34,254 nt of DNA, taken from IMG/VR virus record IMGVR_UViG_3300050015_000089, positions 1 through 34,254 of that record; one strand, written 5' to 3'. A program made the translations under genes and the position numbers. Positions 3,690-28,795 of this stretch are shown here, piece by piece. The stretch comes from a virus. Below the pieces are notes generated by a model. The model did no database searches, had not been told where the DNA came from, and saw only the letters and a program-made list of their open reading frames with translations. How positions within the stretch are numbered: the stretch's first letter is position 1; every line of letters starts with the position of its first letter.

Positions 3690-4364
3690 TTACGGATTGG
3701 CAGAAGAATTATTTAATACGTATTTCTTTTTTATATGTTTAACTTCTTCTCTTGGAACGGTACATCCAATATATACTTGTCCATCACTTAGATTATAATG
3801 GAATGATTTGTCAAATCCACCCTCTTTATGTATTCTGGTTAAGTACTTACGTACGGTGTCGGCGGTTCCACCATCCTTAATTTCATTTTCTTTCCCAAAT
3901 GTACATGCTAAAATAAAATCAGATTTAGCAACTAATGCATTTCGGGCATAAAATCCTTTTGTCACTTCTATCAATTCAGCACCTTCATTTTTAGATATTT
4001 GTATCTCAGATAGTGAATTTATATGAGTAACTGTTTGAAATTTTTTATGATAATAATTCGCAGTTCCACCAGGATTTGCAAATGGATCTTTTACTCCCGT
4101 ATCGTGGAATATACCATCATCCCATTTAGCAGGAAGGAAAAGACGAAGATGTGGTACTTTTCTATCAAGAAATAATCTAACAGCAACGTGGTCTGCATAT
4201 GCTGCCCCACCACTAACTAAATGAGTAATTGAATATCCACTCTCATTAAATTGCTCTATTAATCCTGATGCAACGATACACATTGCCTGAAAATGATTTC
4301 TTGATAACTTTTTACCATCATCTTCTCTCCCCGCCGTTCCAACTATAGAAAATGTAATTTCCAT
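3690..4364 (-). CDS. SLOG/Rossmann-like nucleotide-binding protein, 224 aa
   Basis: The start has a SIVGTAGR strand-turn (residues about 6-13) and THLVSGGAAYADHVAV (about 47-62), matching the 'G-x-x-G-R ... SGG-A-x-G-A-D-x-x-A' pattern of the SLOG/DprA-like Rossmann superfamily, which binds nucleotides or nucleotide-derived signals. Later comes GGTANYYHKKF and GGTADTVRKYL, the second a Gly-Gly-Thr phosphate-loop-like feature. Phage copies of this family are common but of unknown function. Some bacterial SLOG proteins bind NAD+-derived signals in defence systems; with the NAD genes nearby a role in sensing or sequestering nucleotides is conceivable but unproven. Its start lies 4 nt from the stop of 4369-4782. 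Confidence 0.6.
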   Translation of the reverse strand: MEITFSIVGTAGREDDGKKLSRNHFQAMCIVASGLIEQFNESGYSITHLVSGGAAYADHVAVRLFLDRKVPHLRLFLPAKWDDGIFHDTGVKDPFANPGGTANYYHKKFQTVTHINSLSEIQISKNEGAELIEVTKGFYARNALVAKSDFILACTFGKENEIKDGGTADTVRKYLTRIHKEGGFDKSFHYNLSDGQVYIGCTVPREEVKHIKKKYVLNNSSANP

Positions 4365-5822: not shown

Positions 5823-6252
5823 TCCATTCTCCTATAGATATAAGTTCATTTTTAATAAGTTTCCAATCAGTCTTTGGTTCAAACCCTGCTCGGTCATCAA
5901 TCAATACATTAAAATAGAATTTCTTCGAAAAGTCACTTCTCTCAGTATCCTGAGCATGTGAATTGCTATTGAGATAATCAAAATAAATTCCATTATCATC
6001 TAACCAAAAAAATACATTTATAATTCGTTTAATAGGAGTACTGGTCCATAAAATCATTATAATATCTTTACGCCTAGACATCCACTGAAGGACTTCTTTG
6101 GCATATGGATAGAATACCAGTTTCTCAGTCTTATCTTTGGATGTTTTACCACTTGGAATGATAGTACCGTGAAGGTCAATACAGAAGTAAACTTCTGGCC
6201 AACCCCGTTCTTTCTTCATTTCAAATGTTTTTCTAATATTAAAAATATTCAT
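5791..6252 (-). CDS. HAD-superfamily phosphatase-like protein, 153 aa
   Basis: HAD motifs are readable in order: motif I FCIDLHGTI (about residues 23-31), motif II LWTSTP (about 69-74) and motif IV VLIDDRAG (about 116-123). HAD hydrolases form a phospho-aspartate on the first Asp of D-x-D. Here the second Asp of motif I is His (D-L-H-G-T), a change seen in some phosphatase subfamilies and in inactive relatives. The size suggests little or no cap domain. ATGA overlap couples it to the NAD synthase upstream (stop 6249-6251, start 6252), hinting that it works on a nucleotide or nicotinamide phosphate; this is inference. Confidence 0.75.
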   Translation of the reverse strand: MNIFNIRKTFEMKKERGWPEVYFCIDLHGTIIPSGKTSKDKTEKLVFYPYAKEVLQWMSRRKDIIMILWTSTPIKRIINVFFWLDDNGIYFDYLNSNSHAQDTERSDFSKKFYFNVLIDDRAGFEPKTDWKLIKNELISIGEWNVNTPLLRKH

Positions 6253-7319
6253 TTAATATATTTTTCCAATTCTTTTAACTCTTCAGCATATCCACCAGTC
6301 AGAATCGGAGTCCTGCACCAAGTCCTCGGATCTAGATTGTGGTCATCCATATGAAAACTTAATGCATACCGTTCACGTTTCCACTGGTTCATAGAAAACA
6401 ACTTAAAAAATTTAGTAATATCTTTAATAAGTTGATTATTATCTTCACCACTTTTTACAAAACTGGTATTTACCTTAATAGCGTGATAGATTTCAACTGG
6501 CGTATAACGATTCTTTACCACCATTGTCTCAATCATATGCAATAACCAATACGGCATCAAATCATCTTCATCCGTTTGATTACATTCCTTTGGTCGTAAT
6601 TCAGCAGTCGGTTGCTGTTCATTAACATATTTTAATGCAGGACATACTCCCAATGGTGCTGGACCTAACTTTTCTGCCCAATCAAGAAACTTTTTAATAT
6701 ATACCTTTGGAAGTCCTCCAATTGGAGCAACACATCCAGCAGTATCACCATCCATAGTAGCATATCCAACCGCTGCCTCACTCATATTGCTTGTGGTAAG
6801 CAATAACTTGCCTTGCATATTTGCGATAATCCAAATTCCAGGAGCACGAACCCTCGCTTGCAAATTCTGCAATACAATATCGTTATCTTTAAAATTCAAT
6901 GGCGAACCTTGAATAACCTCTCCAAGCTTGGAATATTCTTTCATTAATGGTTCAACATCAAATTCATAATGAGGAATACCCAATTGTTTTGTCAATTTTT
7001 CAGCAGCATTTCTAGTTACTTCACCACTTTGTGCGGTCGCTTGGTATGCAGTTGTGATTAACTTTTTAATCAATAATCCTACATTAGGATAATCTTTCAA
7101 ATGTGGGCAGTATTTTTTAATGAATAATTCTTCCCCAAGTTCATAAACTCCTAAACGAATTCCTGATGCACAAAGATATGTCACCATAGAAGAATCGGCA
7201 CCACCACATATTAACACTTGTCCACCACAATGAGAACAATATTCTGTATCACACCCAGGTATATGTGTAAACCCAGGATCAACTTCACAATCATGGCACT
7301 TTTTTAAATTATTTAACAT
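6249..7319 (-). CDS. nadE: NAD+ synthase (ammonia-type) with N-terminal zinc ribbon, 356 aa
   Basis: NAD synthase makes NAD+ from deamido-NAD+, ATP and ammonia. The PP-loop reads CGGADSS (38-44), with Cys in place of the usual Ser. Further motifs are the RVRAPGIWIIAN helix, LLLTTSNMSEAAVGYATMDG, a PTAELRP(x6)TDEDDL segment and a C-terminal KRERYALSFHMDDHNLDPRTW that resembles the longer glutamine-type enzymes. No nitrilase-type glutaminase domain is present, so free ammonia is the likely nitrogen donor. Residues 8-31 add a Cys/His ribbon (CHDC, HIPGC, YCSHC), unusual for this family. A promoter at 7327-7354 predicts transcription starting 1 nt before the ATG. It completes the pathway begun by the nicotinamidase and adenylyltransferase at 16167-18019. 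Confidence 0.9.
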   Translation of the reverse strand: MLNNLKKCHDCEVDPGFTHIPGCDTEYCSHCGGQVLICGGADSSMVTYLCASGIRLGVYELGEELFIKKYCPHLKDYPNVGLLIKKLITTAYQATAQSGEVTRNAAEKLTKQLGIPHYEFDVEPLMKEYSKLGEVIQGSPLNFKDNDIVLQNLQARVRAPGIWIIANMQGKLLLTTSNMSEAAVGYATMDGDTAGCVAPIGGLPKVYIKKFLDWAEKLGPAPLGVCPALKYVNEQQPTAELRPKECNQTDEDDLMPYWLLHMIETMVVKNRYTPVEIYHAIKVNTSFVKSGEDNNQLIKDITKFFKLFSMNQWKRERYALSFHMDDHNLDPRTWCRTPILTGGYAEELKELEKYIK

Positions 7320-7326
7320 AGAATAT

Positions 7327-7354
7327 ATTCTACCGATATTCTGTGATATGTCAA
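7327..7354 (-). promoter_or_regulatory. Sigma70-type promoter for nadE, leaderless type
   Basis: TTGACA (7349-7354), 16 bp, TAGAAT (7327-7332). Predicted start 7320, 1 nt before the nadE ATG. The TGA stop of the upstream phosphoesterase (7351-7353) lies inside the -35 box. Confidence 0.8.
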
Positions 7355-7971
7355 GCTACGGGAGGATTATTTTTTAAAGATTGAAAATATGTTCCCGACT
7401 TTCCACGCAACCCTTTAAATTCACTATTTAATTTATTATACGCCACCCATACATCTTCATCATAATAATCAGATATTGCTTTAAGATGAAAAGGAATAGA
7501 ATCCGAATCAACTGGTTTATAATGATTAGCATCTACTCCCACATTAAACATATTTAACTGATATTTCCAAGCTGCATGGATATGTCCAACAATATTAAAC
7601 GCAGATGAAATGCCTCTCGTTGGATAATGAGTAATATAACATTCAACTCCCCATGCTTCCATATTAATTCCATCCCCATCTGGAATAATTTCAATAAAAT
7701 ATGGTTTTAATTGTTCATCAGTAAACACTCTATCATGATTGCCACGGACCAATGTTTTCCTTCCATTAAACTGTTCAACAAAAGGAAGATATTCTGGCGT
7801 TTTCTGATAACAAACATCACCAACAACAATGACAGTATCCTCGGGTGATACCAATTCATTATGATTTTTAATCATTGTTTGAATCATATCATTTGTAGTT
7901 TTAAATGGTCTTCCCATTACATCCATTCTATTATCTCCCAAATGCCAATCTGCTGTAAACCAAGTGCTCAT
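7351..7971 (-). CDS. Calcineurin-like metallophosphoesterase, 206 aa
   Basis: All the metal-binding motifs are present: ADWHLGD (7-13), VVGDVCY (about 49-55), RGNHD (about 76-80), ITHYP (about 113-117) and VGHIHA (about 128-133). This is a complete two-metal phosphoesterase of the compact phage type. Substrates of phage members are mostly unknown (nucleotide or polynucleotide phosphates). A second, distant member lies at 33096-33746. It is followed directly by the nadE promoter, so the NAD synthase has its own start signal. Confidence 0.88.
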   Translation of the reverse strand: MSTWFTADWHLGDNRMDVMGRPFKTTNDMIQTMIKNHNELVSPEDTVIVVGDVCYQKTPEYLPFVEQFNGRKTLVRGNHDRVFTDEQLKPYFIEIIPDGDGINMEAWGVECYITHYPTRGISSAFNIVGHIHAAWKYQLNMFNVGVDANHYKPVDSDSIPFHLKAISDYYDEDVWVAYNKLNSEFKGLRGKSGTYFQSLKNNPPVA

Positions 7972-7973
7972 AT

Positions 7974-8429
7974 TTAATTAATTAAAGGAACAATTTTTAA
8001 CCCTTTACTATCTGCCCAAGCACGATAATAATTTTCAATACACCCTCCAGGTTGGAAATGTCTATCATAATGATAATTTCCAAGTTTTTCAATAAACCAC
8101 TTTGTTTTTGTCCATATTTGATATACTTTATACATTTCAGGAAAACGTTCTTTAAGTGAATCATCTTTTGGTACGAACATAAATTGAGTTGGTTCGGGTG
8201 GAGTGTAAACACCAACATCATCTACTGTCCCAAAAGAAACCACTTCAAATCCATTCCAATCTCCGTTATGAACAATAAAATATAATGTTTCACCATTGTA
8301 ATCAATATGACCAGACAAAGTATGATTACAAGCATTATGTTGATAAATATCAGTAAACGTTACACCATACCCCCCACCATTCCAATGAGATTCGGTAATG
8401 CGTTCGGCAATTTCATCAGGCATTTTCAT
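7974..8429 (-). CDS. Hypothetical protein, 151 aa
   Basis: Not recognised. A beta-rich first half (HIDYNGETLYFIVHNGDWNG, then FEVVSFG) is followed by a helical half with many aromatics (FPEMYKVYQIWTKTKWFIEK). The start is affected by a 13-bp tandem duplication (see repeat at 8416-8441): the upstream copy gives an ATG frame of only eight codons, and the downstream copy gives the real start at 8429. The gene ends 2 nt before the phosphoesterase begins. Confidence 0.7.
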   Translation of the reverse strand: MKMPDEIAERITESHWNGGGYGVTFTDIYQHNACNHTLSGHIDYNGETLYFIVHNGDWNGFEVVSFGTVDDVGVYTPPEPTQFMFVPKDDSLKERFPEMYKVYQIWTKTKWFIEKLGNYHYDRHFQPGGCIENYYRAWADSKGLKIVPLIN

Positions 8430-8441
8430 CAGGCATTTTCA
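8416..8441. repeat. 13-bp tandem duplication over a start codon
   Basis: On the minus strand the unit TGAAAATGCCTGA occurs twice in direct succession, just after the stop of the GNAT gene. Because 13 is not a multiple of three, the upstream copy of the start is out of frame (encoding MKMPDENA then stop), and only the downstream copy leads into the 151-aa gene. Confidence 0.85.
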
Positions 8442-8786
8442 TATTTTAATCATGTTAGGTGCCATAGATGTTTCATCACATCCATATGTAAATTTATATC
8501 CCATATTTTTAAGAAAGGGAATAAGTCTTGGTTCTAATATACTTTCAACGTATATTCCCCTTTGTAAATTTATTGCTTCAGTTTCAAATCGTTTAAGAAA
8601 TCCTGTAAAAATACCTCTTCCTCGTTGTTCCTCAATAACTTCTACTGAACCAATATCTAAAAAATTATATAATCTATCTTCATATATTCTTGAAGATCTC
8701 CGAACATATACTTGAATATGTTTTTCAAAAATCCACGAGTTGCGCAATTGGGTATTAGAAAGAAATAATTCCAAATCCATTTTCAT
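8439..8786 (-). CDS. GNAT-family acetyltransferase-like protein, 115 aa
   Basis: The central part reads SVEVIEEQRGRGIFTGFLKRFE, matching GNAT motif A (strand, then the acetyl-CoA loop R/Q-x-x-G-x-G/A: here Q-R-G-R-G-I), followed by an EPRLIPFLKNMGYKF segment like the conserved C-terminal 'F-x-x-x-G-F' of GNATs. At 115 residues it is short for the family and lacks much of the N-terminal substrate region. Substrate unknown. Its start (ATG 8786) overlaps the deoxyribosyltransferase-like stop by 4 nt, so the two are translationally coupled. Confidence 0.7.
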   Translation of the reverse strand: MKMDLELFLSNTQLRNSWIFEKHIQVYVRRSSRIYEDRLYNFLDIGSVEVIEEQRGRGIFTGFLKRFETEAINLQRGIYVESILEPRLIPFLKNMGYKFTYGCDETSMAPNMIKI

Positions 8787-9241
8787 ATAATTGCTTCTTT
8801 CAATAATGTATTTAAAGTGTTATGAATTGGTTTATTATTAAACTTTTTATAAAACCAATCTAAATATATACATTTAACTGCCCAATCAGGTCTTCCATAA
8901 AATGTATTGCTATATGACGCATACTTACCAAATTCTACATTGGTTGTTAATCCTGGCATAGTTTTCATGTTTCTAGGTACCCAGAAAACAATGCTTTTAC
9001 AATGAGTAAGTCCAAACAGTTCCCATTCAACCTGACCAATATAATCTATATGTTCCGCTTTATCTTTTCGTTCAGGAACTATTACTTGACCATCATATTG
9101 AAGATAATTAAGAACATCTATTGCTATGGGTCTCCATGAATATATATCTTTCGATCTTGGTGTTGGACCAGCAAGAAATATACTATGTATATTTAACTTC
9201 AGTCTTTCTTCAATTGGTTCATCTGAATAGATAATATTCAT
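8783..9241 (-). CDS. Nucleoside 2-deoxyribosyltransferase-like protein, about 152 aa
   Basis: The chain SIFLAGPTPR, SWRPIAIDVLNYL, VIVPERKD, DYIGQVEWELFGL, SIVFWVPRNMKTMPGLTTNVEFG follows the family pattern closely, including the active-site region with Y-x-x-Q-x-x-W-E and the TTN-x-E-F-G helix that carries the catalytic Glu. Family members cleave or exchange the glycosidic bond of 2'-deoxynucleosides or nucleotides; related folds hydrolyse NMN or ADP-ribose-type bonds. ATG 9241 is chosen because it follows the previous stop by 2 nt; the frame can be extended to 9328 but would overlap the neighbour by 85 nt. Confidence 0.85.
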   Translation of the reverse strand: MNIIYSDEPIEERLKLNIHSIFLAGPTPRSKDIYSWRPIAIDVLNYLQYDGQVIVPERKDKAEHIDYIGQVEWELFGLTHCKSIVFWVPRNMKTMPGLTTNVEFGKYASYSNTFYGRPDWAVKCIYLDWFYKKFNNKPIHNTLNTLLKEAII

Positions 9242-9243
9242 TA

Positions 9244-9555
9244 TTAAAACTTTGGTTGCTCTGTAACTTTTTGTGTAACATTTTCGGTGTATTGAACTTC
9301 TCCACAATTCATACATTTTCGTTTCCACCTTTTAGTTATTTTAGTAGGTACATCAAATGGTAATTGCCTATCTACTCCCATAGTACCTGGAGGATCACCT
9401 GGATCCCGATATCCTTTTAAAACAATATCATCTCTTACAGGTTCAGTCCATTCATGTTTACAATTATAAATTGCCTCTGCCAATTTCTCTTTGGCCTTCA
9501 TATATTCCAAGTGCGCTTGATCAAGCGCATCTCTCAACTGTGGTATAGCATTCAT
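9244..9555 (-). CDS. Zinc-ribbon protein with N-terminal coiled helix, 103 aa
   Basis: Residues 5-32 form a charged heptad-like helix (LRDALDQAHLEYMKAKEKLA); one zinc site is suggested by NCKHEW (about 31-36) and KRKCMNCGEVQYT (about 77-89). A Pro/Gly-rich loop (YRDPGDPPGTMGVDRQ) separates them. This arrangement is common in phage proteins of unknown function. The ATG overlaps the stop of the methyltransferase gene by 4 nt. Confidence 0.75.
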   Translation of the reverse strand: MNAIPQLRDALDQAHLEYMKAKEKLAEAIYNCKHEWTEPVRDDIVLKGYRDPGDPPGTMGVDRQLPFDVPTKITKRWKRKCMNCGEVQYTENVTQKVTEQPKF

Positions 9556-10319
9556 TTATGTTTCCTTAAAATAAGTTTTAAATGTGTTGGATCTTTGATT
9601 TCAATCCCTAAATCATCCCGCACAATCTGAAGAAGATACGGCAATGTATAATGCTCGTGGAAAATAATATCATATTCTAATGGTATCTTTGCCAAAAGAG
9701 TTTCCCGTGTAATAGGCATATAATTCTCCCTAACTTCCCGTTCCCAATTTGGAGTCAAATACCTATATTTAAGCAAGAAATGAATGAGTTGTTTATTGTT
9801 TTCAATGCTTCCCCACATTTGTTCAAAATCATTCAATGCCTTGGTTCCAAGGAACTTATAATATACTTTCTTAACGTCATTGACATTACTTGCTCTGTCA
9901 ATCGCTTTACCTGGAATCATATCCCGAATGACAATGAATTCAAATCCAGTATTAAATACTTTATTCCAAAAATCATCAATATCTGCTTTGCTTCCATAGT
10001 GGAACACTTCATGAATAACAGAAGATAATATAATTGCAGGATGTTTAGATTCTCCAACCAGTTTTTCAACGCTTCTCCAGTCAGAATAAATCGGACAATC
10101 TTTCGCCATACGTGCCATTGCAGGATCAATATCGTATCCCGCAAGAACAACGTCCGACTTCATTGTACTAATGGCATTTAACAATGCTCCGTTGGCACAA
10201 CCGAAATCAATAATAGCATCCGCATTAATCTTATCCAGAAAGAATGCCTTATCCATCATTGATAGTTCCATCCGCTTGTTATAAGCGGTATAATCTGTAA
10301 TGCTAGGTGCTTCATTCAT
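9552..10319 (-). CDS. SAM-dependent methyltransferase (class I), 255 aa
   Basis: The SAM-binding motif I is AIIDFGCANGALL (about residues 35-47) and motif II is AGYDIDPAM with the acidic residue that holds the ribose; IILSSVIHEVFHYG supplies the later strand and may position the substrate. No catalytic N-P-P-Y or P-C motif of DNA methyltransferases is seen, so a small-molecule, RNA or protein substrate is more likely. The promoter at 10329-10356 places the transcript start 3 nt before the ATG. First gene of the run 10319 to 7351. Confidence 0.8.
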   Translation of the reverse strand: MNEAPSITDYTAYNKRMELSMMDKAFFLDKINADAIIDFGCANGALLNAISTMKSDVVLAGYDIDPAMARMAKDCPIYSDWRSVEKLVGESKHPAIILSSVIHEVFHYGSKADIDDFWNKVFNTGFEFIVIRDMIPGKAIDRASNVNDVKKVYYKFLGTKALNDFEQMWGSIENNKQLIHFLLKYRYLTPNWEREVRENYMPITRETLLAKIPLEYDIIFHEHYTLPYLLQIVRDDLGIEIKDPTHLKLILRKHK

Positions 10320-10328
10320 ATTTCACCA

Positions 10329-10356
10329 ACTATACCGATGTTTTATGGAATGTCAA
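10329..10356 (-). promoter_or_regulatory. Sigma70-type promoter, near-leaderless
   Basis: TTGACA (10351-10356), 16 bp, TATAGT (10329-10334). Predicted start 10322, 3 nt before the methyltransferase ATG. The TGA stop of 10353-10820 is inside the -35 box. Confidence 0.8.
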
Positions 10357-10820
10357 TCCATCTGCCGAATTAATTTTACTCCATCACATATTACAGTATT
10401 AGCGGGTGCAATCCAATAATCTACTGCATCAGGTACTTCTTCGGGTATGGACGAAACAGACGCAATCCAAAACGTTTTAATAAAATTATCCCTTACCTTA
10501 TTAATAGGTTCATCTATATGATTATATTCTTGAAATAAGTTAGGAATATAAACAAATGGAATAACCGTTGGATTTAAACATTCACATTCAAAAATAAATT
10601 TATCATAATTACAAAATTTATTCCTTCTTGCTTCAAGAAGTGAACTAAATACAAATAATTTTCCAACTTTAGGATATGTCCACTCATTAAGTTTATATTC
10701 AACCTTCATAGAATCAGGAATGAATTTACCCATTGACGATTCCAATTTACATGTAGATACATTTAACTCTTTTAAATCTTTGTGAGTTCCCAATACAACT
10801 TTATAATATATTTCACTCAT
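10353..10820 (-). CDS. Hypothetical protein, 155 aa
   Basis: Not assigned. The N-terminus MSEIYYKVVLGTHKDLKEL, a middle LFVFSSLLEARRNKF and the C-terminus ANTVICDGVKLIRQMD resemble a widespread family of short phage and giant-virus proteins with unknown role (Y-Y-K-V-V ... F-x-F-x-S-x-x-x-A-R ... V-x-L). Cysteine pair ECECLNP lies mid-protein. No membrane segments. It starts 4 nt after the kinase gene stop, so it may be an accessory of the kinase/PP2C/vWA module. Confidence 0.65.
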   Translation of the reverse strand: MSEIYYKVVLGTHKDLKELNVSTCKLESSMGKFIPDSMKVEYKLNEWTYPKVGKLFVFSSLLEARRNKFCNYDKFIFECECLNPTVIPFVYIPNLFQEYNHIDEPINKVRDNFIKTFWIASVSSIPEEVPDAVDYWIAPANTVICDGVKLIRQMD

Positions 10821-10823
10821 AAC

Positions 10824-12545
10824 TTATTTACGTTTAATCTGGTGCAAACTATTTCCATTAATAAAAAACAATCCATCGGGTGTCGCAATTAATTTCATTG
10901 TAGAATCCAATGGAGGATTCGATATTGTTTCACATTTAAATGCAGTGGTAAATAATTCCAATTCCGTTGGATTTGCCAATAACGCACACAATCCATTATC
11001 CATGACTGCAAAGTTAATAGTATCATACGATACGTCATCAACCTTCCTAATATCACATTTAGAGTATTGTTTGTCAAATACAATGATAAACCTATCATAT
11101 TGACCATTCTTTTCACCTAATACCACCGTGACATATTTATCCGATTTGGCACCGACCACCCTATACCCATCCAATTGTGGCATATGTTTAGAGAAACAAC
11201 TTCCCAATTTATATGGTAATGTTAAATATATCTTTCCCAATAGATTTTGTATAACACATCCATCATACATTTCCGCTGAAGTAGTTGATACATTCTCTAC
11301 TTCATTAATACGATGCACAATTTTATGACCAAAAGAAGTAAACGAGTTCTCTACCAATTTGCCTCTACTTATGGTATAGATGGCATTGTTGCGAGCAAAC
11401 ATATTATTACTTGTGGCAGTACCAATTGGTTCGCTCTTGGTTAATTCATTAAATAGTATTTTATTACTAAACCCCTGTTGTGCTGCAATAAGAGTTCCAT
11501 CCGATGAAGCACAAAGTAATGTTTTCCATTTTACATCGTGAGTTTCAATTTCTTTTTTGCTGGCATATATATGTGATTTAGTAGCAATGTAGTAAATACC
11601 CATTATTGTAAATACACATTGAATATTACTATCGTAGGATGCTATTTCCTCTACTCCAATATTATCAGTACCTTGTATGGTAATGACTTGTGTAGGAACC
11701 AACAAAGGAACACTACTATCGGGATCAGGAGGAACGGAACGGTTTTTAGTATCAGAAAATATAAACTTATACCAATCCAATAATCGTTTCGGAATAATGT
11801 TGAATGGTGTAACAGAAGGAGGCATTCTAGATTTTGGATCAAATACAGATATATTATCATCCATTTGCTGTTTTTTTTGATTAGGTTTATAATTGGGATG
11901 AGTCCCCCTATAAGGATGAATATTAACTAATGCATTGAAAGATAATACGCCCCAAGAAAACCAATCGGATAATTCATCTGGATTATATACTAAATGTCCA
12001 TTTAAATTACTTGATACACGTCTATCCATTATAGATTGCATCACCGCTGATGATTTATAACTTGGAGTTTGATAACTATCACAATCTATGAAATAAGGCT
12101 CTAACGTTCCCGACGAGTCTTTAATCAATATATTTAACTCATTATAATCAACTATAAGACATTTACATCCATGTATTTCCGATGTAATTATTCGCATTTT
12201 CTTTATTAAGTCAATCATCATTGTCATACTAACATTATTATTGTCCTTAAATGTTTTAGTAAAGTATTTTACAAACGGTTCAACATTATCTATGAAAGTA
12301 GTGGTATATCCTATAGGTTTATCACCGGCATTACTATAAATAATTTCTTGTGGAGTAATTACCGATGGGTTTGGAATTAATGATAGTTCTTGTATCTTTT
12401 TTAATGGTAGTACATGTGTATCATTATGATAAATCTTAAATGCTTTTCCGCCATTAACATAAATACTTCCTTCTCCACCAGATGCTAAGTATGATTTATC
12501 ATTTAATACGAGTGTTGTTCCATTAACCTTAATCTTTAAATTCAT
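10824..12545 (-). CDS. TerY-P-type protein kinase with C-terminal propeller-like region, 573 aa
   Basis: The kinase core (about residues 1-280) shows a Gly-rich loop ASGGEGSIYV (21-30), the ATP-binding Lys in KAFKIYH (K37), a catalytic loop VDYNELNILI (D133, N138) and a metal-binding IDCDSYQ (D154/D156) in place of DFG, as in the kinases that accompany TerY-like vWA and PP2C proteins. LSDWFSWGVLSFNALV is the alpha-F region. Residues about 285-573 are beta-rich repeats (VFTIMGIYYIATKSHIYASK and similar) suggestive of a beta-propeller sensor. It phosphorylates proteins in the cytoplasm; partners are presumably the vWA and PP2C proteins at 13349-14939. The order is broken by an endonuclease gene at 12579-13304. 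Confidence 0.82.
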   Translation of the reverse strand: MNLKIKVNGTTLVLNDKSYLASGGEGSIYVNGGKAFKIYHNDTHVLPLKKIQELSLIPNPSVITPQEIIYSNAGDKPIGYTTTFIDNVEPFVKYFTKTFKDNNNVSMTMMIDLIKKMRIITSEIHGCKCLIVDYNELNILIKDSSGTLEPYFIDCDSYQTPSYKSSAVMQSIMDRRVSSNLNGHLVYNPDELSDWFSWGVLSFNALVNIHPYRGTHPNYKPNQKKQQMDDNISVFDPKSRMPPSVTPFNIIPKRLLDWYKFIFSDTKNRSVPPDPDSSVPLLVPTQVITIQGTDNIGVEEIASYDSNIQCVFTIMGIYYIATKSHIYASKKEIETHDVKWKTLLCASSDGTLIAAQQGFSNKILFNELTKSEPIGTATSNNMFARNNAIYTISRGKLVENSFTSFGHKIVHRINEVENVSTTSAEMYDGCVIQNLLGKIYLTLPYKLGSCFSKHMPQLDGYRVVGAKSDKYVTVVLGEKNGQYDRFIIVFDKQYSKCDIRKVDDVSYDTINFAVMDNGLCALLANPTELELFTTAFKCETISNPPLDSTMKLIATPDGLFFINGNSLHQIKRK

Positions 12546-12554
12546 AATTATTTT

Positions 12555-12582
12555 AGTTTATTACAGAATTATCATGTGTCAA
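12555..12582 (-). promoter_or_regulatory. Putative sigma70-type promoter for the kinase gene
   Basis: TTGACA (12577-12582), 16 bp, TAAACT (12555-12560, 4 of 6 matches). Predicted start 12548, 3 nt before the kinase ATG. The TGA stop of the endonuclease gene lies inside the -35 box. Confidence 0.5.
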
Positions 12583-13304
12583 ATTGATTGTTTTAATGCT
12601 GCTCGTAAAATATCTTCAATCCGATTTCTATCGGTATATTTTATTCTCAACAAACCAATTTTATTATCTTCGGCATATTTAGTCTTTATGCCATCTCTAT
12701 ATTGGGTATCTTTCAATTCTTCCTCCGACGACTCATATCCTTTAAACTTTCCATTGGAGAAATGTTGAGGACCATCATATTCTATTAAAAGATTATGTTG
12801 AGGTAAATAAAAATCATATTTAAAGAGATTTCCACTTTTAGGATTTCTACAGTCATCAAACATTTTTTGATAAAAATATTTTATATTATTTCTAATTAAC
12901 ACTTTTATAACTTCTATTTCTCCACGAGAAATTTTACACCGTGGGCAACCTTTTCCACTTAAATGAGAATTTGGGATCTGAAAAAATGACCCATGTTTAG
13001 GACAAATAATTTCTACTTTAATTCTATTACCAGTATAACATGCTTTCTTATAAGAGTACTTGTTATTGTGTATCTCCATTGACTCTCGTATAAAATCTAT
13101 GGTAGATTTTCCAACCCCGGCACATGTGGGACATCCATGCCCTGCTAAATGACTATTTGGAGATTGTAAAAACTCTCCGTGGTGATTACATACTATTTTA
13201 ACTTTAGTTCTAATATTAGTATAATCTACAAAAGAGTAAGAATATCTATGATTATGTACTTTATTAGCTTTCTCAACAAACTCATTATATGTTGCTCTTT
13301 TCAT
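12579..13304 (-). CDS. Vsr/EDxHD-like homing endonuclease with two zinc repeats, about 241 aa
   Basis: Two N-terminal repeats of the form 'HNH-(R/K)-YSY ... V-x-I-(V/I)-C-x-x-HG-x-F-x-Q-x-P-x-SHL-x-G-x-GCPxC' are followed by a nuclease domain: GEIEVIKVLIRNN, KYDFYLPQHNLLIEYDGPQHF and YRDGIKTKYAEDNKIGLLRIKYTDRN, the layout of very-short-patch-repair-type nucleases found as free-standing homing endonucleases in phages. Key acidic residues are E-Y-D-G. The paralog at 15014-16120 begins MKRQS, so Met5 (ATG 13304, MKRAT) is preferred over ATG 13316. It separates the kinase from the PP2C gene and looks like an insertion into that module. Confidence 0.85.
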   Translation of the reverse strand: MKRATYNEFVEKANKVHNHRYSYSFVDYTNIRTKVKIVCNHHGEFLQSPNSHLAGHGCPTCAGVGKSTIDFIRESMEIHNNKYSYKKACYTGNRIKVEIICPKHGSFFQIPNSHLSGKGCPRCKISRGEIEVIKVLIRNNIKYFYQKMFDDCRNPKSGNLFKYDFYLPQHNLLIEYDGPQHFSNGKFKGYESSEEELKDTQYRDGIKTKYAEDNKIGLLRIKYTDRNRIEDILRAALKQSI

Positions 13305-13348
13305 TTTATATACCATTTATAAACTACTGAGAATAATCAAAATCAAAA

Positions 13349-14125
13349 TTACACAATAATACTCGCAACGCTTATGTCATCACTATGAGTAATACCTTCT
13401 TTTAAACACTTTCGTTTAAAAGCAGATACCCTTCTTAATACAAATTCACCTTCAAAATTCTTATATCCGGTAAATTCATCAATTAATTCCTTCCACGGAA
13501 TCGGTGTATAATCCGATTTTCTAAAACTATTAATACCATCGGATATGACTGAAATAACATCACCTTCTTCTACTGGTTTTGTTATAACCACTGGATAAAA
13601 TGGTGAATAACATGCTACATTATTATCAAATTCTACTATTTTTTGATTATCTTTCATTCCATGATATGCTGCCGTTCTTAATGTATCAAGTTGATAAGAA
13701 AGATAATCTGGTGCTCCACTTGTTAGATTAATATGAACTGTATTTACTTTATCTTTAGTTTTATGAATAAGCACTCCATCACCAAACAAAAAAGCAGTCA
13801 ATTGTTTATTCTTAACCCACGCTGCCAACAATGTGGCATCTAATGATTGTGCGTGAATTGTAGGAAAGGATAAAAACATCTGTGTGGATTTCCTAATTGC
13901 TTCTTTTCCAAACTCAATACAATCTTTTGTATGAAAATCTGTAATAATACATTCTCTTGCTGCCAGTGCTAAGAACCTTGCACCAATATCAACATCAGGA
14001 GAAGCACTGCAACCATCACATACAATAGCATATGATAAATCAAATTGTGGTTTAACACCACTCAAAGCATAGTCTTGACAAACAGTGTGATCGTGTCCAA
14101 TCCAAAATGTACTATTGGTATTCAT
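13349..14125 (-). CDS. PP2C-type serine/threonine phosphatase, 258 aa
   Basis: PP2C motifs are seen in order: YAIVCDGCSASPDVDIGAR (metal-binding D-G at about 37-38), SLDATLLAAWV, TAFLFGDGV, ISVISDGINSF and HSDDISVASIIV at the C-terminus (D-D-x-S/T). It is a compact metal-dependent phosphatase that removes phosphate from Ser/Thr. With the kinase (10824-12545) and vWA protein (14184-14939) it makes the TerY-P triad described from bacterial tellurite/stress gene clusters. It begins 58 nt after the vWA gene, with a terminator-like hairpin between, so expression relative to vWA may be reduced. Confidence 0.87.
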   Translation of the reverse strand: MNTNSTFWIGHDHTVCQDYALSGVKPQFDLSYAIVCDGCSASPDVDIGARFLALAARECIITDFHTKDCIEFGKEAIRKSTQMFLSFPTIHAQSLDATLLAAWVKNKQLTAFLFGDGVLIHKTKDKVNTVHINLTSGAPDYLSYQLDTLRTAAYHGMKDNQKIVEFDNNVACYSPFYPVVITKPVEEGDVISVISDGINSFRKSDYTPIPWKELIDEFTGYKNFEGEFVLRRVSAFKRKCLKEGITHSDDISVASIIV

Positions 14126-14136
14126 ATATAACTTAT

Positions 14137-14166
14137 TAAAAGAGGGGATGGTGTTTAGCCATCCCC
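14137..14166 (-). terminator. Rho-independent-type terminator after the vWA gene
   Basis: An 8-bp perfect GC-rich stem (14144-14151 with 14159-14166, GGGGATGG / CCATCCCC) with a 7-nt loop is followed on the minus strand by TCTTTTAATAA. The U-run is modest, so some read-through into the PP2C gene is likely. The plus-strand reading has no U-run. Confidence 0.7.
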
Positions 14167-14183
14167 ATTGAGGTATAACTTAA

Positions 14184-14939
14184 TTAAAACTTGAACTGAC
14201 TCGTAGGCAAAGGATTACTGGCTTGTCCATTACTCAATGCTGTGCTTGTGGAACTGATAGACTGACTGATAAAATCAGCCAATTTTGCAATGCGTCCTGG
14301 AGAAGCCTGACCAATACTCACATATTGATCAAATCCACCATCATCCTTGACAGTCTGAAGATACATATTAAGATTGACATCATCACCTGTAACGCCAACC
14401 AAAATAAGGAGAATGGATTCGAGGTTTTCCGAACGACGAGCAGCCAATAGAGATTTCTTAATCTGTGCGGCATCCATAATACTACCAGAGTTATTTTCCC
14501 CATCGGTAATAACTACAATAATACCATTACACAAGAAATCTTGTGATGTAAGTTGCTTACCATAAGTAGCAGTAGCTTGAATGGATTCATCAACTGCATC
14601 AAACAATGCAGTAGTTCCTCCAATTTGGAGAATGTTATCATAATCCTTTTCAACAATAGATCCAAGCAACTTGAACCCGTGGAGTTCCGACAAATTACTG
14701 GTGAATTGTGTAAGCCGAAGCATAAGGTTATCCTTACGTGGAGACTTATCACAAGCCTTAAACACAGTCTTCAATGCTTGTTCCAATTGCACCGCATACC
14801 CTTGAACAGAACTACTTGCATCCACCACAATACTGGCGAGTGTATATTCTGCCGCACCAAGTTTTGCAATCTTGGTTGCACTAAACTTATAATTTGAACT
14901 GGTGTTCAACGTTTCAATATCTTTATCCATTAAACTCAT
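14184..14939 (-). CDS. TerY-like von Willebrand factor A domain protein, 251 aa
   Basis: The MIDAS metal site is complete: VVDASSSVQG (D40, S42, S44), a Thr in IGGTTALFDAV (about 110-120) and VVITDGENNSG (about 147-157). TerY-like vWA proteins bind partners through a divalent metal and serve as scaffold or substrate for the associated kinase and phosphatase. The tail (SSTSTALSNGQASNPLPTS) is Ser/Thr-rich and flexible, a possible phosphorylation region. Codon choice is less AT-extreme than in the adjacent endonuclease gene. It has a strong promoter at 14977-15004 and a 31-nt purine-rich leader, and is followed by a terminator; the strongest-looking expression unit of the triad. Confidence 0.88.
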   Translation of the reverse strand: MSLMDKDIETLNTSSNYKFSATKIAKLGAAEYTLASIVVDASSSVQGYAVQLEQALKTVFKACDKSPRKDNLMLRLTQFTSNLSELHGFKLLGSIVEKDYDNILQIGGTTALFDAVDESIQATATYGKQLTSQDFLCNGIIVVITDGENNSGSIMDAAQIKKSLLAARRSENLESILLILVGVTGDDVNLNMYLQTVKDDGGFDQYVSIGQASPGRIAKLADFISQSISSTSTALSNGQASNPLPTSQFKF

Positions 14940-14976
14940 AACTCATATCTTTCTTTTTTATTGTTGTCTTTCAATT

Positions 14977-15004
14977 ATTATAACACAGTTTGATAACAAG
15001 TCAA
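14977..15004 (-). promoter_or_regulatory. Strong sigma70-type promoter for the vWA gene
   Basis: TTGACT (14999-15004), 16 bp, TATAAT (14977-14982, perfect -10). Predicted start 14970 gives a 31-nt leader with an AAGAAAGATATGAGTT purine-rich stretch before the ATG. Confidence 0.82.
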
Positions 15005-15013
15005 CCCGTCATC

Positions 15014-16120
15014 TTATAATAAATTTGTTGTTAATATTTGTTCTATCTGATTAAACTTCGTATATTTTATTCTTAACAATTTTATATTATTATTTTTGGA
15101 ATATTCATTGCGTAGTTTATCTCTAAATTGTATTTCTTTAAACTCATGTTCTGTAGTTAAATGTTTGCCCTTTATTAAGGCACCCATTTTGTAATGTTGT
15201 TCTCCGTCATATTCTATTAAAATATTTTGATTTGGTAAATAGAAATCAAATTTCAACTTTGTGTTAGATTTTGGATTTATACAATCAACAAATGTCTTTT
15301 GAGAAATAAATTCTATATTATTATTTTTTAAAAAATTTAATATTTTTATTTCTCCATACGAACTATTACAATGTGGGCATCCTTGACCTAATAGATGTCC
15401 ATCAGGTCTTTGTAAAAATTTTCCATGTTTTGGACATTTAATACACACTTTTGATTTATTATCTTTATATTCCGTGATAAATGAATAATCATATTTTTTA
15501 TTATGAATAATGTTTGATTCGTTAATAAAAGAATTTATTGTATATCGCTTATTTCTGGAGCACACATTACACCCAGTACCTTGTAAATGGCTGGCTGGGG
15601 TCTGACTAAATTCTCCATGTATTTTACAAATAATTTTGACTTTTTCATGAGTGGATAAATAAACCACATTAGAATAATCATACTTATTTCCATGAACTTT
15701 CTGAGCCTTTTCTATAAATTGACTTGTTGTTAGTTTTGGAGTTCCAAAACAATATGGACATCTACAACCATTTAAATGAGAATTTGGTTTTTGTAAAAAA
15801 ATACCATGTAGCGGGCATTTTATTTCTACTTTGGAAAACGCATTTAAATAAACCACATTAGAATAATCATACTTATTTCCATGAACTTTCTGAGCCTTTT
15901 CTATAAATTGATTCGTTGTTGATTGCTCCGTGCCGCCACATATGGGACATCCATGACCCCCAAGATGATCGGTTGGCATTTGAAAAAATAAACCATGTAT
16001 TAGGCATTTTATTTCTATTTTAGTATAGTTATTTTTATAAATTACATTAGAATAATCATACTTGTGGTTATGAATAATATTTGATTTTTCAATAAATTTT
16101 TCAATAGATTGTCGTTTCAT
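15014..16120 (-). CDS. Vsr/EDxHD-like homing endonuclease with four zinc repeats, 368 aa
   Basis: Four tandem repeats of about 63 residues (each 'F-I-E-K-(A/S) ... HN/GNKYDYS-x-V-x-Y ... V/I-x-I-x-C-x-x-HG-x-F-x-Q-x-P-x-x-HL-x-G-x-(G/R)C-x-x-C') span about residues 1-250. They are followed by the same nuclease domain as in 12579-13304: GEIKILNFLKNN, KFDFYLPNQNILIEYDGEQHY, QFRDKLRNEYSKNNNIKLLRIKYT. The repeats probably bind DNA with one zinc each. Repeats 2 and 3 still share a 67-nt identical stretch, so amplification is recent. The start codon lies in a 16-bp inverted repeat (16110-16157). It sits between the nicotinamidase and the vWA gene. Confidence 0.87.
   Translation of the reverse strand: MKRQSIEKFIEKSNIIHNHKYDYSNVIYKNNYTKIEIKCLIHGLFFQMPTDHLGGHGCPICGGTEQSTTNQFIEKAQKVHGNKYDYSNVVYLNAFSKVEIKCPLHGIFLQKPNSHLNGCRCPYCFGTPKLTTSQFIEKAQKVHGNKYDYSNVVYLSTHEKVKIICKIHGEFSQTPASHLQGTGCNVCSRNKRYTINSFINESNIIHNKKYDYSFITEYKDNKSKVCIKCPKHGKFLQRPDGHLLGQGCPHCNSSYGEIKILNFLKNNNIEFISQKTFVDCINPKSNTKLKFDFYLPNQNILIEYDGEQHYKMGALIKGKHLTTEHEFKEIQFRDKLRNEYSKNNNIKLLRIKYTKFNQIEQILTTNLL
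15656..15722. repeat. 67-nt direct repeat, copy 1 (inside endonuclease gene)
   Basis: Identical to 15845-15911; the 189-nt offset is exactly 63 codons, one protein repeat unit. It shows recent duplication of a zinc-repeat module. Confidence 0.9.
15845..15911. repeat. 67-nt direct repeat, copy 2 (inside endonuclease gene)
   Basis: Identical to 15656-15722 base for base; the flanks diverge immediately on both sides. Confidence 0.9.
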
Positions 16121-16157
16121 ATTACTAATAAATATAGTTCGGTAATATGAAACGACA
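16110..16157. repeat. 16-bp perfect inverted repeat enclosing an endonuclease start codon
   Basis: Arms 16110-16125 and 16142-16157 are perfect reverse complements with a 16-nt AT-rich loop. The 16110-16125 arm includes the ATG and the next bases of the endonuclease gene, so a read-through RNA from the nicotinamidase gene would bury the start codon in the hairpin. The loop holds a TATATT that could be a -10 box for a transcript lacking the upstream arm. Confidence 0.85.
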
Positions 16158-16166
16158 TATATATTT

Positions 16167-16979
16167 TTACCAATCGATCGATTTACAAATTTTCATTCCT
16201 CGCTTGGACATATTTAAGACAAAATCTTGTCCCAACTTCTCAAATCCAGTTACAGAACTACTACAATCAGTCAAAAGTGTAAATTTTTTAATATTATCAT
16301 CGCCAAAATTATTAGCAATATCAGTAATAGACGAAGCAACGCAATGACTTAAAGCTTCGCCAGTGATAAGAATCTCATCAGCTTCAGAAAGAGTATCTAA
16401 CAAATTCGTATTGAGTTTTGTACTTGGATCATTATCATCAGGACAGTCCGCCATCAAAATAGAATAATGTTCACTCGCCATATTACTACCTTTAGCAACG
16501 AAGTTAATACGACTAAAGGTATCCTTTTCCCACTTATACAATGCCTCTGCAACCACAGGAACGATACTATGTCCCCATGATCCAATCAAACAATGTACTG
16601 GCCAGATAACAAGAACATACCGACCATTTTTCTTAAGTGTCTCCACATACGACAATGCCTTACCTTGCCATTGTGGATTAAATGCCCTCCAAACTCCATT
16701 CTTGACATCGTCAACGGAAATCATTGTAAATGGATTGGGGTGCTCTCCTTTGGAATTAACCCAAAACGATGGGTGAGCAATATGCACATATTGATGAGAA
16801 TCCAATGTACAGTGAATTTCTGTAATACGTTTTTGATTTTTATTGATAAAACTTCCCAAGCGAGTCATATCTGCTTCGGCACCTGCAACAACAAGTTGCC
16901 CTTTTTCTCCACCTGGACCCTTTGCAATACAAAAATCATTTTGCGGGTCAATTGTAATTAGATGAACTGTCTTTGCCAT
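16167..16979 (-). CDS. pncA: Nicotinamidase (isochorismatase superfamily), 270 aa
   Basis: Nicotinamidase hydrolyses nicotinamide to nicotinic acid and ammonia. The catalytic set is visible: D11 in TIDPQNDF, the metal-binding DSHQYVHIAHPSFW (D60, H62 and H66 or H69), WPVHCLIGSWG (125-135, typical of nicotinamidases), a likely catalytic lysine at K163 (FVAKGSN) and the nucleophile C213 in GEALSHCVASS. Length fits the PncA family with some inserts. It lies downstream of the adenylyltransferase gene with its own promoter (17046-17073) and a 60-nt purine-rich leader ending GATAAAGTT before the ATG. The ammonia it releases could serve the ammonia-type NAD synthase at 6249-7319; this is inference. 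Confidence 0.9.
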   Translation of the reverse strand: MAKTVHLITIDPQNDFCIAKGPGGEKGQLVVAGAEADMTRLGSFINKNQKRITEIHCTLDSHQYVHIAHPSFWVNSKGEHPNPFTMISVDDVKNGVWRAFNPQWQGKALSYVETLKKNGRYVLVIWPVHCLIGSWGHSIVPVVAEALYKWEKDTFSRINFVAKGSNMASEHYSILMADCPDDNDPSTKLNTNLLDTLSEADEILITGEALSHCVASSITDIANNFGDDNIKKFTLLTDCSSSVTGFEKLGQDFVLNMSKRGMKICKSIDW

Positions 16980-17045
16980 AACTTTATCTTTCTCTTTTTA
17001 GTTTATTCTGTAACTTTTTTACTTTTTCTCTCTAACCGTGACTTT

Positions 17046-17073
17046 ACTATACCGCTACAGTATAAAAAGTCAA
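17046..17073 (-). promoter_or_regulatory. Sigma70-type promoter for the nicotinamidase gene
   Basis: TTGACT (17068-17073), 16 bp, TATAGT (17046-17051). Predicted start 17039; the 60-nt leader is purine-rich with repeated AGAGAAA/AAAGA stretches. Confidence 0.78.
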
Positions 17074-17095
17074 ATTTATTTTACAAGTTGCTTGT

Positions 17096-18019
17096 TTATC
17101 CCTTGTAATGATTGAACCAATTTTTAAACATACCAAAAATTGGTCTGTGAGTTGGATTTATATCAGTATCTTTAAGATCATTAATATTTTTCCATTGAAC
17201 AAAACTTAAATCATCTGCTGCAACTGGTGTTCCAGTAAAATATCTCATTGCATATAAAAATGTCATTATTTTATCAATTTCATTTCTATATCGAACATCA
17301 TCAACCACCATACTTCCAATATAAGTTTCAACACCGACTAACAAACTTGTTTCTTCCAAAGTTTCTCTCACTGCCGCAGTTTCAGCACTCGTATCCTTTA
17401 ATGGATCCATAAATCCACCTGGGAATCGTAAAAGTGTTTCTCCTGATTTTTGTCCGAGCAATATTTCATCGGTATCAAAATTGATAATAGCCATATCCAC
17501 CGTTGGCTTAAAAGAAGGATATTGATTCTCCATGGCATGAACAACACCCTTGCGCCAATCTTCTGTAGGAAGTCCTTTAATACCAATACGTTTGCGAATT
17601 TCACTTGCGGAAATAAACTTATTAGGCACCAATTCAACGGTAGGAAACTTACCTTTATATGAATCAATAAAGCTACTCCTGCTTCCATATAATACTACTT
17701 TATTGGATGGTCCAATAAGTTTACTTATTTGGCGGTCAAGATTTTTGCTCCAGATATCATCATCAAAAACATCTTCAATATAATAAGTTTCAACATCTGG
17801 ATATTTCTCCTCCAGCATTGCTTTGCGAGCAGCAAAATCCAATGGGTTTCTCATTGTGCATTTAAGATGTGCAAGACCTAAGAATACTAATACTCTTGGA
17901 TGATTGGATGTGACACGATTGAGAATATCAATGTGTCCTTCGTGAAGGAATGGACTCTGGAAACGGGCGATAATAACACCCACTTCAGCAACTTCGGCAA
18001 CTGTCTTTAGTTCGTTCAT
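17096..18019 (-). CDS. nadM: Bifunctional NMN adenylyltransferase / Nudix hydrolase, 307 aa
   Basis: The N-terminal half is a nucleotidyltransferase: IIARFQSPFLHEGH (17-29, with the H-x-G-H ATP motif H26, H29) and FISASEIRKRI (135-145, the I-S-x-(S/T)-x-x-R motif). It joins NMN or NaMN to AMP, making NAD+ or deamido-NAD+. The C-terminal half is a Nudix domain: FPGGFMDPLKD (199-209) and ETAAVRETLEETSLLV (213-228, R-E-x-L-E-E), typical of ADP-ribose pyrophosphatases, with a slightly lengthened box. The same fusion is known from cyanobacteria, Francisella and vibriophage KVP40. It has a good purine-rich ribosome site (AAAGGT) and a 94-nt leader behind the promoter at 18120-18148. Confidence 0.92.
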   Translation of the reverse strand: MNELKTVAEVAEVGVIIARFQSPFLHEGHIDILNRVTSNHPRVLVFLGLAHLKCTMRNPLDFAARKAMLEEKYPDVETYYIEDVFDDDIWSKNLDRQISKLIGPSNKVVLYGSRSSFIDSYKGKFPTVELVPNKFISASEIRKRIGIKGLPTEDWRKGVVHAMENQYPSFKPTVDMAIINFDTDEILLGQKSGETLLRFPGGFMDPLKDTSAETAAVRETLEETSLLVGVETYIGSMVVDDVRYRNEIDKIMTFLYAMRYFTGTPVAADDLSFVQWKNINDLKDTDINPTHRPIFGMFKNWFNHYKG

Positions 18020-28232: not shown

Positions 28233-28694
28233 TTATCCTTCATAATTACATATGTATAAATCAATACCCGAATCAGTATCAAACACTACATCTATAATTG
28301 ATTTAATAATTAACCAATTTCCTCCTCCTAAACAAGATCCCATATTTTTTGGAAGACCAAGACGCATAACATTTCCTTGAATAGCGTGCTGGGCAATACC
28401 TACAAGACCCGTATAAACCGCTTCATAATTCGTCTGTCTCCTATCCACACCATATCCATATTGACCGTATAGATTATACCCCTGTTTACCATCGTGACAT
28501 TTTACAGTAGAGAAACTACCAAGTTTGGAAATATCTCCTGCTCGTCCATAATTAATATCTGCCTCATACAATTCAGGATATTTCCTCTTAATCTGAGCAG
28601 CTATTCCACCACCGAAACAGCACATACAATTTGCTTGATGAATTATCCCATCTAAAGGATATTCTAAAAGATTTGCGTTTATTTCATATATCAT
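28233..28694 (-). CDS. Macro-domain protein (ADP-ribose binding/hydrolase), 153 aa
   Basis: The macro-fold signature is complete: IIHQANCMCCFGGGIAAQI (about 18-36, the adenine/ribose-binding N-A/C-N and G-G-G-I-A loop), YPELYEAD, and the phosphate-binding GLPKNMGSCLGGGNW near the C-terminus, closest to TARG1/ALC1-type macro domains that remove or bind ADP-ribose. It could clear ADP-ribose marks or ADP-ribose phosphates. ATG 28694 (MIYEI) is chosen because the promoter at 28702-28729 predicts transcription from 28695; an in-frame ATG at 28700 lies upstream of that point. Confidence 0.88.
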   Translation of the reverse strand: MIYEINANLLEYPLDGIIHQANCMCCFGGGIAAQIKRKYPELYEADINYGRAGDISKLGSFSTVKCHDGKQGYNLYGQYGYGVDRRQTNYEAVYTGLVGIAQHAIQGNVMRLGLPKNMGSCLGGGNWLIIKSIIDVVFDTDSGIDLYICNYEG

Positions 28695-28701
28695 GTCCAT
28701 A

Positions 28702-28729: not shown

Positions 28730-28759
28730 ACCATAATGTTAAAAACAATTGCAATTATT

Positions 28760-28787
28760 TTGACTTTTTTAATCATTCAGTTATATT
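28760..28787 (+). promoter_or_regulatory. Sigma70-type promoter for the plus-strand endonuclease
   Basis: TTGACT (28760-28765), 16 bp, TATATT (28782-28787) on the plus strand; predicted start 28794, 2 nt before the ATG at 28796. The frame open from 28736 runs through this promoter, so its first 20 codons are most likely not translated. Confidence 0.75.
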
Positions 28788-28795
28788 TATGTAAT

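Follow-up and report, generated by a model that had tools for sequence, protein, structure and literature searches.

The 34,254-base virus record IMGVR_UViG_3300050015_000089 carries three genes for the metabolism of nicotinamide adenine dinucleotide (NAD+) and, among them, a triad of genes for a vWA-domain protein, a PP2C-like phosphatase and a protein-kinase-like protein. We refer to the whole stretch of DNA analysed, which is the complete record and includes no host genome, as the window. A sequence-only reading of this DNA had proposed three NAD+-rebuilding enzymes, and our analysis confirmed these as predicted genes on three minus-strand open reading frames (ORFs), for NadE (6249–7319), PncA (16167–16979) and NadM-Nudix (17096–18019). 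The features concerned are as follows.

6249..7217, minus strand: predicted glutamine-dependent NAD+ synthetase, NadE, reduced to its synthetase domain (ATP-PPase) without the glutaminase, with the P-loop CGGADS (PF02540, PDB 3ilv)
7218..7319, minus strand: 34-residue Cys-rich leader, Zn-finger-like by eye, in frame with the NadE domain (sequence at the join)
10824..12545, minus strand: Ser/Thr-kinase-like protein of 573 residues with a long C-terminal extension (PF00069 in aligned members, invariant residues)
13349..14125, minus strand: PP2C-like phosphatase (PF13672, 40.3 bits)
14184..14939, minus strand: vWA-domain protein in the TerY-like position of the triad (PF00092, 30.8 bits)
16167..16979, minus strand: predicted PncA-type nicotinamidase of 270 residues (fold model, invariant catalytic and metal residues, relatives adjoining pncB and nadE)
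17096..18019, minus strand: NadM-Nudix-like adenylyltransferase plus Nudix hydrolase, 307 residues (NF003786, PF00293, PDB 2qjo)

A twin record (G001; 38,085 bases) was identical to the window over three compared pieces covering window positions 1–27483 and reached approximately 10.6 kb past window position 1, the two contigs together covering 44.9 kb. The relatives retrieved via the window genes were large (G002, 365 kb and possibly incomplete; G004, 215 kb; G006, 435 kb), the largest among uncultured-phage records being up to 595 kb, and a terminase domain was detected in 12 of 23 large records, including G002. We take the window to be a piece of a huge tailed phage.

The window PncA was too diverged to give any Pfam match at 1e-3, and yeast Pnc1 matched it at 1.5e-4. 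The PncA model NF008623 matched it at 1.3e-6 with 28.4 bits, below its cut-off of 174. The first 16 PDB matches of its fold model (pLDDT, the predicted local distance difference test, of 96.1) were nicotinamidases or pyrazinamidases, at 15–21% identity. In an alignment of 43 sequences, D11, K163 and C213, which we take to be the catalytic triad, were invariant, as were D60, H62 and H129, presumably the metal site (D-x-H...H). Relatives of this protein adjoin pncB and nadE both in bacteria and in phage G044. These observations point to a PncA-type nicotinamidase at 16167–16979, the best support for this reading being the occurrence of the same family in ten bacterial pncA-pncB-nadE-nadM rows (described below).

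The protein at 17096–18019 is predicted to be a bifunctional nicotinamide mononucleotide (NMN)/nicotinate mononucleotide (NaMN) adenylyltransferase and Nudix hydrolase in which both domains are present. The bifunctional model NF003786 matched residues 14–174 (6.5e-15, far below its cut-off), the Nudix domain PF00293 matched residues 172–295 (46 bits) and PDB 2qjo matched at 5.6e-12. Relatives were found at 57% (L012) and 54% (L003), and R19, Q21, H29, S137 and R142 were invariant in an alignment of seven sequences.

The window NadE, of 356 residues, matched the synthetase domain PF02540 with 99.6 bits. Its best PDB chain, 3ilv (6e-77), aligned from residue 35 onward to chain residues 308–626, so that the glutaminase domain is absent from the ORF. 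Tblastn with the glutaminase parts of two relatives detected neither a separate glutaminase gene nor a remnant of one in the window or in L001, the best match (E 0.013 over 57 residues) being taken as spurious. Seven other contigs found with the window NadE (L002–L008; four distinct proteins of 653–700 residues) keep both the glutaminase and the P-loop SGGADS, and two more carry glutaminase and P-loop in a single frame, one of 689 residues and the other truncated where its contig stops. At the join in the window, the Cys-rich leader runs directly into the P-loop, giving the sequence CGGADS. A P-loop was found in 27 NadEs, and in 26 of them, all except the window protein, it is SGGxDS; these 27 include near-duplicates but not L115, L128 or L131. 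As encoded in the window, NadE is a glutamine-dependent enzyme that has been truncated or altered. The proposal in the sequence-only reading of an ammonia-type synthase fed with ammonia from the nicotinamidase was not upheld as a native property, since the relatives found with the window NadE are glutamine-dependent.

The missing steps were found in the relatives. Profile searches for nicotinate phosphoribosyltransferase (NAPRTase, the PncB family), NAD synthase, phosphoribosyl pyrophosphate (PRPP) synthetase (Prs) and NadM covered 49 records, small contigs and duplicates being excluded; several of these are likely one species (G002/G005, G013/G014), and in G039 PncA was matched only weakly. 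Both PF04095 (NAPRTase) and PF02540 (NAD synthase) matched in 31 of the 49 records, many of which are fragments. Among the 19 PncA-positive records of at least 200 kb, NadE was present in 18, and PF04095 together with PF02540 in 16, although three of these PF04095 matches (G022, G024 and G025) were weak, near 1e-5. PF04095 also missed at least one PncB found by the A2 profile (G031, locus L048). Matches to PF04095 were present in each of G002–G006; G002, G003, G004 and G005 had one each, and no second, nicotinamide-type enzyme was seen in these four. The nicotinate phosphoribosyltransferase model TIGR01514 matched 17 of 18 aligned phosphoribosyltransferases at 1e-3, the PncB of G002 scoring above its cut-off, while the eighteenth (W07), with NF006629 as best model, looks Nampt-like to us. 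PncB matched PDB 2im5 at 3e-78. Prs matched PDB PRPP synthetases at 9e-72, the one result that bears on Prs as against Adps. On the twin contig, Prs lies approximately 1.65 kb beyond window position 1. All five genes (PncA, PncB, NadM, NadE and Prs) occur within approximately 23 kb in G002, G003 and G004, the matched NadM of G004 being the adenylyltransferase half only; the positions in two of these records are as follows.

G002 (365 kb): NadE 155.3 kb, NadM 163.3 kb, PncA 164.7 kb, PncB 171.2 kb, Prs 173.1 kb
G003 (34 kb contig): NadM 12.7 kb, PncA 13.7 kb, PncB 23.5 kb, NadE 26.4 kb, Prs 31.8 kb

In G044 (368 kb), PncA, PncB and NadE follow in that order within 3.5 kb.

The same PncA family was also found in bacteria. 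Among the best 80 of at least 553 bacterial loci, ten had the order pncA-pncB-nadE-nadM, all ten with a two-domain NadM (Nudix), and these belonged to Oxalobacteraceae, Burkholderiaceae and Chitinibacteraceae. Phage and bacterial sequences were intermixed in a quick PncA tree, suggesting repeated exchange; the clade of the window has seven members, all from phages.

Overall, we consider the window to be probably part of a huge phage from a lineage with a complete Preiss–Handler route from nicotinamide to NAD+, which is degraded or altered in this phage. Along this route PncA would convert nicotinamide to nicotinate, and PncB would join nicotinate to phosphoribose from PRPP, supplied by the phage Prs, to give NaMN. 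NadM would then adenylylate the mononucleotide, presumably NaMN rather than NMN, to deamido-NAD+, which NadE would amidate to NAD+ with glutamine as donor. The last two steps could be swapped if NadE acts on NaMN. NadE* of Francisella follows such an NMN-synthetase order, acting on NaMN. During infection the route would restore NAD+ from nicotinamide released by NAD+ consumption, host NADases or ADP-ribosylation. In the phage studied here, the glutaminase half of NadE was lost via a join inside the P-loop, and PncB does not lie within the 44.9 kb covered. What the sequences establish is which genes are present, which domains are lost and how the genes lie together; the enzyme activities, the preference of NadM for NaMN over NMN, the timing, the part played by the triad and any action against NADase defences are inferred. 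The sequence-only reading had also anticipated a deamidating phage route distinct from the NadV sets; this was supported, with relatives that are more complete in having PncB, Prs and full-length NadE. The window holds one copy of such a phage-borne route, possibly a decaying one.

Several observations weigh against this interpretation. No NAPRTase (PF04095) was detected in the window, as the sequence-only reading had noted in naming PncB as the only enzyme missing, nor in the twin contig, although the genome is incomplete, so that this is no proof of absence, and PncB exists in relatives. The N-domain of PRPP synthetase was found in only 10 of the 49 records. Among the PncA-positive records of at least 200 kb, G010, G037 and W05 gave no NAPRTase match, and G037 also lacked NadE. 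Of the 44 PncA-positive records among the 49, just 7 had a full-length NadM-Nudix match, which leaves the adenylyltransferase of the others uncertain; a PF01467 match was present in 22 of 31 records. Finally, given the altered P-loop and the lost glutaminase, the window copy of NadE may be inactive.

The commonest partners of PncA are the genes of the triad, which the sequence-only reading does not mention. The neighbours of PncA were analysed in 46 phage loci. L049 (fused), L056 (weak), loci lacking their own PncA and those of near-identical contigs had been set aside, although L030 and L031 still form a near-identical pair. The iterated PncA profile also matched vWA ORFs, probably via the fused ORF of L049, and PncA was placed in the neighbour counts with a profile built from A3 instead. 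On the same strand as PncA, the vWA protein was found in 43, the PP2C-like protein in 43 and the kinase-like protein in 42 of the 46 loci, with the PP2C or kinase gene lying upstream in a few. In 30 of the 43 loci with a vWA gene, no more than 100 bases separate its frame from the end of the PncA frame; in the window the gap is 1,228 bases, with an endonuclease-like ORF in between. In some loci, such as L025 and L029, the NAD genes are interspersed among the triad genes. The kinase-like protein of the window had no Pfam match, and a sequence search of PDB was likewise empty. Its family was recognized by PF00069 in 12 of the 18 aligned members, the window's own excepted, and K37, D133, N138 and D154, which we take to be residues with kinase roles, are invariant in the alignment. 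PADLOC had no match to the PncA, PP2C or kinase proteins of the window, while the vWA protein matched DpdA marginally (0.0063). A vWA match was also present in 16 of the best 80 of at least 553 bacterial-genome loci; some of these may be binned phage contigs, and others, such as Bradyrhizobium L158, are on large scaffolds.

This neighbourhood raises a real possibility, though not one we expect to prevail, that PncA belongs primarily to a signalling or stress module that acts on nicotinamide and is similar to the TerY-P triad, with the NAD genes as loosely associated neighbours. Not only is the triad near-constant and its vWA gene close to PncA, but models for PncB, NadE and NadM matched just 13, 14 and 15 of these 46 loci, respectively, the NadM counts in both the phage-neighbour and the bacterial-locus surveys including Nudix-only matches; moreover, Bradyrhizobium L158 and L168 have PncA and the triad without PncB or NadE within 8 kb. 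However, PncB and NadE occur elsewhere in the same record in 16 of the 19 large cases, and the ten bacterial rows combine this PncA family with pncB, nadE and nadM without the triad. Under the Preiss–Handler interpretation, the triad may switch the route, as its position suggests. A stronger version, in which huge phages carry a self-contained nicotinate-based NAD+ system (PncA, PncB, Prs, NadM and glutamine-fed NadE) under a vWA-PP2C-kinase phosphorylation switch, started by nicotinamide or NAD+ loss that signals a fired NADase defence, appears to us doubtful.

As an observation on the same genes, PncA in L049 (9968–11083) breaks off after approximately 130 residues and continues in frame into the vWA protein. 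This locus yielded no PP2C, kinase or NadM match, and its 91 kb record no NAD synthase; L049 is possibly another degraded copy of the island.

The fate of the window NadE was assessed with a fold model and with its rate of change. The model (pLDDT 77.4, built with 13 sequences; residues 1–19 and 322–341 below 50) had 3ilv as best PDB match and showed a strand of the leader at residues 34–37. The near-invariant columns N152, R156, G185, T188 and P237 are retained, S38 being the exception. Identity of the remnant to the outgroup G006 was 45.5%, compared with 44.4–45.1% for intact NadEs, indicating that the remnant is not faster-evolving, which argues against simple decay; relaxed selection was thus not seen in this comparison. 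Synonymous divergence (dS) of NadE was saturated or not computable, so that the ratio of non-synonymous to synonymous divergence (dN/dS) was uninformative. Because the remnant is not faster-evolving and the model keeps the fold, the truncation may be of recent date, or activity with ammonia may have been kept. The latter idea, that the truncated NadE is a newly evolved and working ammonia-dependent synthetase, seems rather unlikely to us: the retained fold, leader strand, columns and rate would suit it, and other phages of this kind do have NadE as a stand-alone gene (for example, one of 246 residues in G008, whose PncA sits in the clade of the window), but the confidence of the model is middling and the glutaminase is kept in all seven contigs found with the window NadE.

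We consider it unlikely, more so than retained activity with ammonia, that the join is an assembly artefact and the true phage NadE intact. The join was found in two records only, identical over the compared pieces and possibly from the same material. GTGGTGG is present at the join and within the leader, and two of the three relatives compared also have it in their P-loop codons; such repeats could mislead an assembler as well as promote recombination. Against an artefact, the join is the same in both records, an exact 44-base match revealed no contig in viral_contigs with the downstream sequence in another context, and L049, a different relative, also has an in-frame fusion within the island. 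An attempt to trace the origin of the Cys-rich leader gave no match better than E 0.021 among the loci compared, those of the twin contig excepted, and as exact DNA the leader and the sequences flanking the join were found within viral_contigs only in the twin.

An amidated route of the NARP1 (Adps-Namat) or NARP2 (Nampt-NadM) type is very improbable and was rejected: genes of the Prs-like and NAPRTase families both occur in the relatives, and phage NadM is reported, in the available part of one survey, always to accompany NadV (PMC9503650), but 17 of the 18 phosphoribosyltransferases match TIGR01514, the relatives G002–G005 have a single PF04095 match each, an amidated route would make PncA and NadE pointless, and phage Tunturi_5, with NadM-Nudix beside an annotated nicotinamide phosphoribosyltransferase, gave no PncA or NAD synthase match.

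Two further minus-strand genes of the window are neighbours of this set.

8783..9328, minus strand: nucleoside 2-deoxyribosyltransferase-like protein (PF15891, 37.8 bits)
28233..28700, minus strand: macro-domain-like protein (phrog_335, 8.9e-36; DarG models, 2.4e-8 and 8.6e-11)

A PF15891 protein also adjoins the NAD genes of phage Phosso. The macro-like protein had no Pfam match at 1e-3, and its orthologue (55%) lies near the NAD set in G003; together with the Nudix protein it could handle ADP-ribose products.

The remaining observations concern other ORFs of the window. ORFs 12579–13316 and 15014–16120, located among the triad genes, are related to each other, with repeated Cys/His segments and a common C-terminal part, and their relatives occupy other sites among the same genes in G003; by eye they look like mobile insertions of the homing-endonuclease type. 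Two plus-strand ORFs amid mostly minus-strand genes (1489–2373 and 28736–29923) are LAGLIDADG-like endonucleases by eye. The 1267-residue product of 23362–27165 has a C-terminal part that matches type I/II methyltransferase models (PADLOC) and a front part that is helicase-like by eye, and it overlaps a short ORF (22908–23378) that appears methyltransferase-like by eye; a phage restriction-modification-like protein is possible. The 224-residue product of 3690–4364 had no Pfam or NCBIfam match, and its orthologue lies directly behind the full NadE in G003 and behind PncB in L049; judged by eye, it is possibly a SLOG-type nucleotide-binding protein.

Phages are known to counter NADase-based immunity by rebuilding NAD+, and the phage routes described, in the portions of the sources available to us, keep the amide (PMC9503650, PMC7824862, PMC12774641). 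A survey of 21,191 viral proteomes, as far as its available text goes, reports amidated routes only, with NadV in every phage that has NadM (PMC9503650). Records such as G002, in which NadM is found with PncA, PncB and NadE and the one NAPRTase-family match is nicotinate-type, differ from this rule. If active, the nicotinate route would need glutamine and PRPP, and nicotinamide would be removed instead of being directly recycled. We found no description of a nicotinate route in phages in the literature searched, which included the available parts of PMC9503650, PMC7824862, PMC6102473, PMC11242549, PMC12774641 and PMC13232231 but neither most subscription journals nor the primary NARP paper.

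KVP40-type NAD+ salvage, which pairs NadV with NadM-Nudix or NadR and which we take to be NARP2, is similar to the present set in being phage-encoded, in starting from nicotinamide and in having NadM-Nudix. The difference is that in KVP40-type salvage the amide stays in place as nicotinamide is converted via NMN to NAD+, whereas here it would be removed and then restored via PncA, PncB and NadE. A NARP2-like nicotinamide phosphoribosyltransferase was not found, there being no PF04095 match in the window or its twin, and the enzymes of the relatives match TIGR01514. The available text of two sources describes only the amide-keeping route of the KVP40 kind (PMC9503650, PMC7824862). NARP1 (Adps and Namat) is likewise a phage pair of a PRPP-synthetase-like and a NAPRTase-fold protein; it uses ADP-ribose pyrophosphate and nicotinamide (PMC12774641), whereas the NAPRTases found here match nicotinate phosphoribosyltransferase models.

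The closest metabolic counterpart is the bacterial Preiss–Handler row, with the same four enzymes, the same PncA family and the NadM-Nudix fusion. The phage genes differ from it in their spread (from 3.5 kb for three genes in G044 to approximately 23 kb), in being often mixed with the vWA/PP2C/kinase triad and, in some relatives, in the addition of Prs, while the window copy lacks PncB and half of NadE. In named phages PncB is rare: tblastn detected it in 13 of 50,697 records, some looking like host DNA. The 13 include the jumbo phages Atu_ph07 and Phosso, which share with the present phages an annotated nicotinate phosphoribosyltransferase, NAD synthetase and adenylyltransferase or cytidyltransferase. 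In Phosso, an isolated phage (L217, 266756–277988), NAD synthetase, nicotinate phosphoribosyltransferase, adenylyltransferase, Nudix, an isochorismatase-domain hydrolase and a deoxyribosyltransferase-like protein are encoded within approximately 7 kb. Both phages gave a weak, partial PncA match, and their PncA is far more diverged (1e-4 over residues 4–55). In the available part of the Atu_ph07 paper, the NAPRTase gene serves as a marker for PCR, NadR and PnuC (an amidated-type element) are named, and no nicotinate pathway is described (PMC6102473).

With respect to signalling, the vWA-PP2C-kinase genes resemble the TerY-P triad in that genes for a TerY-like vWA protein, PP2C and a Ser/Thr kinase were found side by side. 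The TerY-P kinase carries a C-terminal zinc ribbon or OB-fold (PMC11090510), whereas neither was identified on the phage kinase, whose C-terminal part in the window is long and without Pfam match. A further difference is the link of the phage triad with a nicotinamidase; as this link recurs, it points in a testable way to what triads of this kind might sense in phages. Neither the enzymes nor their bacterial gene row is unusual; what seems new is that they come together in huge phages next to a kinase triad.

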